A DNA stretch of 64,000 nucleotides, taken from positions 1 to 64,000 of the forward strand of contig NZ_JASHIU010000006.1 of assembly GCF_030733545.1 (NCBI RefSeq). The letters are read 5' to 3'. This DNA is from Oceanicaulis sp. MMSF_3324 (GTDB taxonomy: Bacteria > Pseudomonadota > Alphaproteobacteria > Caulobacterales > Maricaulaceae). The position numbers and the translations under genes are program-made. Positions 38,072 through 43,850 of this stretch are shown here, piece after piece. A model generated the notes under the pieces. It saw only the letters and a program-made list of their open reading frames with translations, had not been told where the DNA came from and did not search any database. How positions within the stretch are numbered: the stretch's first letter is position 1; each line of letters starts with the position of its first letter.

Positions 38072-39399
38072 GTTCAGACGCCGCCTCAGACGCTGTGCCG
38101 CAAGCGGGCGCACGCCCGTTCTCTCGCTATGAATTCCTTCTGGCGTTCAAGTATTTGCGGGCGCGTCGCAAGCATGGCGGCGTAACCCTGATCTCGGTGA
38201 TTTCCTTTGTGGGGATCATGCTGGCGGTTGCGGTCCTGATCACAGTGATGAGCGTGATGAACGGCTTCCGGCACGAGTTGCTGACCCGGCTTCTGGGCGT
38301 GCAGCCGCATATCTATGTCACCGTGCCCGCCGATCAGGGCGAGCTGGCGGAAACGCTGGCCGATCGCATTCGTGAGCTGGAGGGCGTGCGTCAGGCAGGT
38401 CCGGTCGCCACAGGACAGGCGCTGGTCACGTCGGGGCGGTCGGCCGCTTTCGCCTCGGTTTCGGGCGTGCGGCCGGAGGATCTGGCCCGGTTCGATCTGA
38501 TCACCGGCGCCCAGGGCGCGGATGAGGCGGGCGGCGGGCTTGTCGCGGGCTCGATCGGTCAGTTCGGCGAGGGCCGCAATGGCGGCGATGTCATCATCAT
38601 GGGCGCGGTCATGGCCAGTCAGCTGGGCGTGGGCGTGGGGGACCAGGTGACTCTGGTTTCGCCCCAGGGCGCCAATACCGCGCTCGGCATGACGCCGCGC
38701 TCCAAACGCTACACCATCGGCGCGCTGCTGAGCGTGGGGGTGCAGGACCTCGATCAGATCCTGGTTTACATGCCGCTCAATCAGGCCGCGCTCTTTTTCA
38801 ACAAACCCGCCCAGGGCGATTACATCGATGTGCGCATTGCCGATGCCGATGCGCCCGAACCCGTCATGGAGCGGATCCGCGCCATCGCGCCCCAGGGCAG
38901 TGTCATGTTCGACTGGCGACGGCAGAACCAGGCCTTCTGGAATGCGCTGCAGGTGGAACGGGTCGCCATGCGGCTGATCCTGTCGGCGATCGTGCTGATT
39001 GCGGCCATGAACATCATTTCCGGCCTGGTCATGCTGGTGAAGAACAAGACCCGCGATATCGCCATCCTGCGCACCATGGGCGCCAGCCAGGGCGCGGTGA
39101 TGCGGATCTTCCTGATTGCGGGCGCGGCTGTGGGCGTGCTCGGAACGCTTGCGGGCATCGGTCTGGGGCTGCTGGCCGTGATCGGCATCGGACCGTTGCA
39201 GGACTTTGTGAGCTGGGTCAGCGGCGTGAACGTGTTCGACCCCAGCGTCTATTCGCTCTACCGCCTGCCGGCGCGGCTCGATTGGGGCGAAGTGGCTTTC
39301 GTGTCCTTCTGGGGCTTCTTCACCTCGCTGGTGGCGACCCTTGCGCCCAGCTGGCGGGCGGGCCGCATCGATCCCGTGGAGGCGCTTCGCTATGAGTAA
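38068..39399 (+). CDS. lolC: Lipoprotein-releasing ABC permease LolC/LolE family
   Basis: A 443-residue permease with four spans: about 45-70 ([28 protein letters not shown]), a large periplasmic domain, and three near the C-terminus ([26 protein letters not shown] is the conserved loop). With LolD it pulls mature lipoproteins from the inner membrane to LolA. Only one permease gene is present before lolD, so the complex is probably a homodimer. GTG start overlapping proS. Confidence 0.93.
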
Positions 39400-40081
39400 A
39401 CCGGCGCTCTCCCTGCGCGGCATTACGCGGATCTACGAAACCGAAGGTGAGCGCCTGGAGGTGCTGACCAATGCCGATCTGGATCTGAATGCCGGCGAGC
39501 TTGTCGGCCTTGTGGGACCGTCTGGTTCGGGCAAGTCGTCTTTGTTGCACGCCGCCGCCTTGCTCGAGGCGCCCAATGCGGGCGAGGTCTGGATTGGCGG
39601 TCAGAACGGACTGGCTTTGAGCGAGCGAGAGCGCACCGCCCTGAGGCGTCGTGAAGTCGGTTTTGTCTATCAATTCCATCACTTGCTACCAGAGCTTGAT
39701 GCGCTCGATAACGTGGCCTTGCCGCGCATGATCGCCGGTGCGGGCCAGAAAGAAGCGCGGGAAGCCGCCCAGGCGCAGCTTGAAGCTCTGGGATTGGGCG
39801 GCCGTCTGCATCACCGTCCCGGACAATTGTCGGGCGGCGAACAGCAACGGGTGGCCATTGCGCGTGCGCTGGTGAACGAACCGCGCATCCTGCTCGCGGA
39901 CGAGCCCACTGGCAATCTTGACCCGACCACCTCCGACCAGGTCTTCGCCGCGCTGGCGCGGGCCTGTCGGGAGGCGGGCGCGGCGGCCCTGATCGCCACG
40001 CATAATCATGAACTGGCGGGTCGCATGGACCGGGTCATGACGCTCGATCAGGGGCGCGTCGTGGCCTGGACTGACGCCTGA
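39392..40081 (+). CDS. lolD: Lipoprotein-releasing system ATPase LolD
   Basis: A 229-residue ABC ATPase with Walker [10 protein letters not shown], the [15 protein letters not shown] signature, Walker [13 protein letters not shown] and a switch His in IATHNH. The ATG at 39392 overlaps the permease stop by 8 nt. It supplies energy for lipoprotein release. Confidence 0.95.
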
Positions 40082-40096
40082 CGGCGCGGCATCTCT

Positions 40097-40111
40097 GTTC
40101 CGGAAATGTTC
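40097..40111. promoter_or_regulatory. Perfect alphaproteobacterial LexA box
   Basis: GTTC CGGAAAT GTTC exactly fits the alphaproteobacterial SOS box GTTC-N7-GTTC. It lies 16 nt after lolD and 133 nt before the 30-codon gene. The interior is less AT-rich than in strong sites, so binding may be moderate. Confidence 0.65.
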
Positions 40112-40157
40112 TAAGTCGCGGGTTTTCCGCAGCTTTTAAGGCCGAATCAAAATCCGC

Positions 40158-40207
40158 TTGACGCGCGGAACAAAAGCAGAAAACATGCAATGGAACAAAA
40201 CAGGAAT
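40158..40207 (+). promoter_or_regulatory. Promoter overlapped by near-consensus LexA sites
   Basis: TTGACG at 40158-40163 is a good -35 element, with a weak -10 (AAACAT) 17 bp downstream. GAAC-AAAAGCA-GAAA at 40168-40182 matches the reverse SOS box GAAC-N7-GAAC at 7 of 8 fixed positions and falls between the -35 and -10. GAAC-AAAACAG-GAAT at 40193-40207 matches 7 of 8 and would cover the start site. GGAACAAAA is a direct repeat (40167-40175 and 40192-40200). This arrangement is what LexA-repressed promoters look like. Confidence 0.6.
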
Positions 40208-40243
40208 AGCTGCTTTTGAGGCAGCTGATCAAGGAGTTGTCCC

Positions 40244-40336
40244 ATGCGAAACCTGATTGAAGATATGACCTCCGCCGCTGTCATCGTCGGCTTTATCGCT
40301 GTCGCACTCAGCCTGTCAGCCGCACTCGCGGGCTGA
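40244..40336 (+). CDS. sidA: 30-residue single-span protein, candidate SidA-like SOS division inhibitor
   Basis: A 30-codon gene (ATG CGA AAC CTG ... GCG GGC TGA) with a near-perfect ribosome binding site, AAGGAG at 40231-40236. The protein starts MRNLIEDM and continues as one hydrophobic helix of about 20 residues rich in Ala, Val, Ile and Leu, ending in LAG. It is preceded by a perfect and two near-perfect LexA boxes and a small hairpin, AGCTGC/GCAGCT, at 40208-40226. Caulobacter SidA is a 29-residue SOS-induced inner-membrane peptide that blocks the divisome at FtsW/FtsN; length, topology and regulation match. Sequence homology is not testable by eye at this length. It sits between lolD and dnaE. 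Confidence 0.65.
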
Positions 40337-40397
40337 CCTGAGGGAGAGGCGGGGTCTAGAGTGCAAGCCTGATTCCGCCCGAGCTGGAGCGCCTGTC

Positions 40398-43850
<3,453 letters not shown>

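Follow-up and report, generated by a model that had tools for sequence, protein, structure and literature searches.

A reading frame of 30 codons directly upstream of dnaE is, with good confidence, the orthologue of the Caulobacter gene sidA in a Maricaulis-type lineage, where it probably acts under the control of LexA as a brake on cell division. We claim orthology because position, operator, size, stepping-stone sequences and a comparison of profiles point in this direction. By analogy with C. crescentus we expect the gene to be induced in the SOS response; the transcription start, the insertion and orientation of the peptide in the membrane, its target FtsW and the arrest of division are likewise predicted from that species.

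The gene lies in the first 64000 nt of one contig (hereafter the window, i.e. the whole stretch of DNA that was analysed) of a genome of 2.98 Mb in 24 contigs. The first-pass annotation had proposed a 30-codon frame with a single membrane span and the motif AAGGAG 7 nt before its ATG, and all of this was borne out (Table 1). The best 17-residue Kyte-Doolittle mean of the 30-aa peptide is 2.52, and one membrane span is predicted. A G-rich Shine-Dalgarno-like motif occupies the same place across the alignment of the 21 loci described below. A Pfam scan of the peptide gave no match, and the sole match in an NCBIfam scan (E up to 10) was RpfC with 14.9 bits against a cut-off of 200. Relatives were found neither in the PDB nor, by tblastn, among phage and plasmid sequences (both E up to 1). 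A known RNA family in the gap was likewise rejected, as the single Rfam match reached 17.5 bits against a gathering score of 70.

Table 1. Features of the lolD-dnaE region (positions in the window).
Feature	Position	Strand	Remarks
lolD, upstream neighbour	39392..40081	+	start codon chosen by the analyst
Perfect LexA box, GTTC-N7-GTTC	40097..40111	+	auxiliary operator or chance
-35 element, TTGACG	40158..40163	+	TTGAC 9 or 10 nt before the start of box 1 in 21/21 loci
LexA box 1, 7-of-8 match	40168..40182	-	between -35 and probable -10
LexA box 2, 7-of-8 match	40193..40207	-	over the probable transcription start (predicted)
5'-UTR hairpin	40208..40226	+	directly behind LexA box 2, before the Shine-Dalgarno motif; stem of at least 5 bp in 14/14 loci of the genus
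Shine-Dalgarno motif, AAGGAG	40231..40236	+	7 nt 5' of the ATG
SidA-like single-span peptide gene, 30 aa	40244..40336	+	stop codon included; purifying selection, conserved position
dnaE, downstream neighbour	40398..43850	+	61 nt past the peptide stop

DnaE was sought in 99 genomes, including the genome of the window, and was found in 98; upstream DNA was obtained for 96 loci. A rule was applied which demanded an ATG-initiated ORF of 25-37 aa with one hydrophobic span, a Shine-Dalgarno-like motif and LexA operators no more than 110 nt away, either one or more perfect boxes or two with a single mismatch. It was matched by 80 of the 96 upstream regions, the window included, a count that is descriptive since the rule was composed after these regions had been viewed; under the same rule, 1 of 1700 shuffles (20 of each of 85 stretches of at least 120 nt) and none of 421 stretches of 600 nt from elsewhere in the window qualified. 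Matches were distributed over the window's own family f1 (53/56), f3 (10/10), f4 (7/10) and f5 (10/10), with none in f2 (0/10). For L048, one of the three misses in f1, the peptide was recovered by a profile search (E 8.1e-8) with a profile that contained relatives from its genus. The gene lolD precedes dnaE in 56 of the 96 loci and was not found in the examined stretch of the other 40; as an upstream neighbour it is therefore not universal. The distance to dnaE also varies; measured from the start of the ORF, it is between about 100 and 400 nt.

Among 80 named loci, 24 conformed to the rule, of which 22 are of the Caulobacterales type (including Phenylobacterium, Caulobacter, Brevundimonas, Maricaulis, Hellea and Robiginitomaculum) and two belong to the Sneathiellales. 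The remaining 56, judged by a rule that is blind to peptides longer than 37 aa, comprise L127 (Caulobacter sp. S45), L131 (Brevundimonas) and, from other groups, 54 records that include many Rhodobacteraceae and Sphingomonadales. In L127 the peptide is present and a perfect box is absent.

Within the genus, the codons are constrained as well. The median dN/dS was 0.21 (14 loci, window included; 84 usable of 91 pairs) versus 1.12 and 3.06 for the shifted frames of the same DNA, with many pairs near saturation of synonymous sites and raw codon differences among eight diverse loci of 241 synonymous and 316 non-synonymous. The nearest pairs showed dN 0.00 with dS 0.24 and dN 0.015 with dS 0.60. 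By this measure, the peptide ORF evolves as a protein under purifying selection. The comparison of the dnaE-upstream gap in relatives that the first-pass annotation had called for thus returned the same type of peptide, ribosome binding site and LexA boxes in most loci.

The ten sampled loci of family f2 (L079, L084, L085, L087, L088, L089, L091, L092, L094 and L095) possess a lolD-dnaE gap of 55-81 nt. A profile search in this family gave a best match of E 0.047, and none of the f2 matches fetched had dnaE beside it. Loss of the checkpoint gene in f2 is probable. In L036, L068 and L095 no peptide was detected, and a perfect LexA box is kept shortly before dnaE, as if the operator had outlived its gene or now served dnaE.

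The SidA of C. crescentus (CCNA_02004; PMC10769358) is described as an inner membrane protein of 29 aa which interacts with FtsW (PMC4211646), and the dnaE of this organism is reported as CC1926 (PMC1839093). Peptides from Caulobacter and Phenylobacterium were recognised by the SidA model NF033228 (72.3, 73.7 and 65.6 bits; cut-off 35). The Brevundimonas-like peptide of genome G060 scored 20.5 bits; the peptides of Maricaulis and of genus g9 gave no match. The window peptide was not matched at E up to 10, nor was anything in its own genome at E up to 0.01. Across 299 genomes of the order, 53 matched at E up to 0.01 and 33 exceeded the cut-off, all of them in f3 and none in f1; in 14 control genomes, C. 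vibrioides was the sole match. Since the cut-off is passed only in f3, NCBI's model leaves the gene unnamed in the window's lineage.

In Caulobacter genomes, among them G092 and G138, dnaE follows directly on the SidA match, and the window peptide is thus the positional counterpart of SidA. Measured against the Caulobacter and Phenylobacterium genomes, it occupies the same place directly before dnaE; with 30 aa and one membrane span it falls within the 29-30 aa of SidA, predicted LexA boxes lie at its promoter, and NF033228 does not recognise it at 35 bits. The reading as a SidA homologue, already put forward in the first-pass annotation, is supported by the conserved locus and by the occurrence of SidA at the same place in Caulobacter and Phenylobacterium. 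The alignment with SidA that had been recommended gave a divided answer. In direct comparison, only 4 of 29 residues are identical to Caulobacter SidA and 725 of 20000 shuffles score as well. A chain of intermediates is significant at each step: the window peptide shares 14 of 30 residues with L011 and L011 shares 12 of 30 with the g9 peptide (0/20000 shuffles as good in either case), and the g9 peptide is identical to that of Caulobacter at 8 of 29 positions (4/20000).

Profile comparisons gave graded results. Aligned by hhalign, the peptides of the window's family and those of the Caulobacteraceae reached a probability of 94.9, equalled in none of 200 column permutations. With the HMM of the window's family, 12 of the 14 peptides from Caulobacteraceae outscored 99% of 766 decoys, from which SidA copies had been removed; two remaining top decoys are peptides of this kind themselves (L048/L231 and L272). 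With the Caulobacteraceae HMM, only 7 of 27 peptides of the window's family lay above 99% of the decoys, and 128 of the 766 decoys scored at least as high as the window peptide. Whole-genome searches with the profile of one family for the peptide of the other found nothing in either direction (0/12 and 0/15; the profile of the latter search included one row mixing two real Caulobacter variants). In our reading, the genes are orthologues by position, and their very short helix has diverged fast.

The divergence of the helix leaves room for a different function. The FVWM core, which is common in the Caulobacteraceae peptides, is missing in the genus of the window, and several SOS peptides of other bacteria, such as TisB, are membrane peptides with other targets. 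The window gene might occupy the sidA locus and encode a single-span peptide that is induced by SOS but has changed its target, either to another partner (for instance FtsN, as for DidA, or a respiratory or envelope complex) or to the membrane itself, which it would depolarise like TisB. The chain of intermediates nevertheless has position and length in common, as well as an acidic residue near position 7 and a GF or SF step, and purifying selection is clear; we consider a shifted target rather unlikely, and an orthologue of SidA directed at the divisome is the preferred reading.

The promoter region was predicted to contain a perfect GTTC-N7-GTTC box, two 7-of-8 boxes and a TTGACG element, and all of these were found. 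The two 7-of-8 boxes do not straddle TTGACG, as had been claimed; both are located downstream of it, with 4 and 29 nt between, so that they cover the stretch behind the -35 element and the probable transcription start. A scan with the sigma-70 consensus called no promoter at the TTGACG stretch. A perfect box alone is not unusual: three occur in the window versus 1.74 expected (22/100 shuffles reach three), and the genome contains 75, compared with 62 for the reversed pattern. The window has 63 boxes with at most one mismatch, where 42 are expected (0/100 shuffles reach 63). A lone 7-of-8 box is not unusual either, whereas the pair is; the combined pattern GAAC-N7-GAAW-N10-GAAC-N7-GAAW has its single occurrence in the 2.98-Mb genome at the peptide locus.

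Two one-mismatch boxes exactly 25 nt apart were present in all 21 compared loci, which were picked because they share the two-box layout and which cover five genera (14 of 15 loci of the window's genus and all seven of g10, g13, g14 and g15). All 42 boxes of these loci carry one mismatch each and none is perfect, whereas elsewhere in the family a perfect box is the usual form. The perfect box of the window is retained within the genus only in the two nearest relatives (L002 and L003), with an altered spacer, and was consequently rejected as the main operator; L006 possesses a perfect box of opposite orientation near the same place. Judged by this comparison, the conserved operators are the two predicted 7-of-8 boxes and not the perfect box. 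About 97% of the SOS promoters of C. crescentus are reported to carry a single LexA box (PMC12700426). A weakened double operator that has been kept for so long suggests a tuned and possibly cooperative repression.

A hairpin lies between the second box and the Shine-Dalgarno motif. It was noticed after the fact; all 14 loci compared in the genus, the window's own among them, can form a stem of at least 5 bp, where 0.86 are expected from dinucleotide and 0.97 from plain shuffles, and so can one of seven loci of other genera. Because the stem sequences differ among loci (for example AGCTGC/GCAGCT, AACTGC/GCAGTT, AAGCGC/GCGCTT, GGCTGCGA/TCGCAGCC and GCCGC/GCGGC), pairing rather than sequence is kept. 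If transcription begins in box 2, the mRNA would carry the hairpin close to its 5' end, where it may protect the transcript or pace translation. Read from the opposite strand, the hairpin looks like an intrinsic terminator.

The ORF could also be a translated leader through which dnaE is regulated under SOS conditions, the peptide having no function in trans. It lies on the same strand only 61 nt before dnaE, no terminator-like site was detected on the plus strand of 40000-40460, and the three loci L036, L068 and L095 keep their perfect box just before dnaE in the absence of the peptide. Against such a leader, the peptide is conserved as an amino acid sequence and as a membrane span, and the distance between ORF and dnaE varies as given above. 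The RNA of 40337-40420 folds no better than its shuffles (z = +1.1), and an attenuator between ORF and dnaE was discarded on this ground. A regulatory leader is thus improbable. Finally, a chance ORF, whose LexA boxes serve dnaE or nothing, can practically be dismissed: each element alone is common by chance, and locus conservation (80/96 versus 1/1700 shuffles) together with the low dN/dS in the true frame rules this out.

The gene lexA is located 1.4 kb past the end of the window (65389-66063 of the contig), and a perfect box ends 36 nt before its ATG. Perfect boxes also precede ssb, a dinB-like polymerase gene and an mmcB-like gene (names from translations). GTTC-N7-GTTC is the LexA motif reported for Caulobacter (PMC9578287, PMC12700426), and because perfect boxes stand at these four genes, the LexA of the host probably uses it as well. 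Out of the 75 perfect boxes, 15 were examined in their surroundings, most of them selected because their spacers are rich in A/T, and no classical SOS gene was recognised at the other 11. Perfect LexA-type boxes were seen close before a glyoxalase-like gene (L109, G000:C13:2309-2323) and before a gene for a short basic protein (L105, G000:C11:163892-163906), both named from translation; these are possible unlisted SOS genes. An FtsW homologue is encoded in the host genome (328 bits, slightly under the curated cut-off of 337.5).

For the preferred reading as a SidA orthologue, the following course is conceivable. LexA bound to the two tandem boxes would cover the promoter and keep the gene off. 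After DNA damage, RecA would trigger the self-cleavage of LexA, and a short mRNA with a 5' hairpin would be formed from which the peptide of 30 aa is translated. Its short charged N-terminus would stay in the cytoplasm while the helix inserts into the inner membrane, where it would block the late divisome (FtsW/FtsI/FtsN) for as long as the DNA is unrepaired. A recently published model puts SidA, at low confidence, on TM7 of FtsW (PMC13396833).

In its length of about 30 aa, its single span, its LexA boxes and its location directly before dnaE (the position being taken from genomes of the genus Caulobacter), the window peptide resembles the SidA of C. crescentus, from which it differs by the low identity of 4/29, the absence of FVWM and the failure of NF033228 to recognise it; its locus differs by two 7-of-8 boxes 25 nt apart and by the 5' hairpin. 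TisB and other SOS-controlled membrane toxins of E. coli are likewise very short, with one span, LexA control and a structured 5' UTR, but they depolarise the membrane and have no link to dnaE. We know of no sequence relation of the window peptide to YneA of Bacillus, SosA of Staphylococcus or ChiZ of Mycobacterium. These three, from other phyla, are described as DNA damage-induced membrane inhibitors of late division, for which FtsW as the target is shown (YneA) or predicted, so that SidA is not the only parallel; a LysM domain is present in ChiZ, an extended region in SosA (PMC13396833). DidA of C. crescentus is also a damage-induced inhibitor acting on the FtsW/I/N complex, but it is reported to be SOS-independent and activated by DriD (PMC4211646).

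The family appears to extend beyond the order. A profile of these peptides, blind to genomic position, was searched against 385 genomes of the class; it is short, and most of the genomes gave no match. In the first round (E up to 0.001), 16 matches were obtained, four in the order and 12 outside; nine of the latter lie directly before dnaE with a LexA box (eight perfect, one with one mismatch) and three do not. The second round, which included the new sequences (E up to 0.005), gave 25 matches, four in the order and 21 outside. Thirteen of the 21 precede dnaE and have a box (12 perfect, one with one mismatch), and two have a box with dnaE out of view, one at a contig end and one with another ORF followed by the contig end. 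The other six were set aside as something other than this kind of peptide; four of them are presumably spans of DgkA.

The 13 matches adjoining dnaE fall into six families (f8, f14, f46, f74, f95 and f141). Relatives from f46 (Sneathiella) were part of the first profile, and matches from f8, f95, f141 and f74 were added to the second; independent finds are therefore f8, f74, f95 and f141 in the first round and f14 in the second. In f14, the peptides of L266, L267 and L268 have a longer N-terminus (about 44-47 aa) and stand before dnaE with a perfect LexA box. In L273 (G357, f95), two perfect LexA boxes belong to a peptide gene for 39 or 46 aa, and the next ORF in the visible DNA is not dnaE. 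We somewhat favour the view that single-span peptides under LexA control, encoded directly before dnaE, form an old family of the Alphaproteobacteria, and that SidA is its tip in the Caulobacteraceae. The link between the SOS division brake and the gene of the replicative polymerase would then predate the order and would have been lost in some branches such as f2, while the genus of the window would have gained the double weakened operator and a hairpin that sets expression.

The SOS division inhibitors described so far vary from group to group (PMC4211646, PMC13396833). In our literature search, no description of SidA outside Caulobacter was found; the original SidA paper of 2011, which lay outside this search, may contain one. 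The locus illustrates how a gene of 30 codons escapes annotation. With their many natural variants, the relatives would be of use for mapping the contact with FtsW, and since their position is conserved across the order and further families, they may offer one lineage in which the evolution of a DNA damage checkpoint can be followed.
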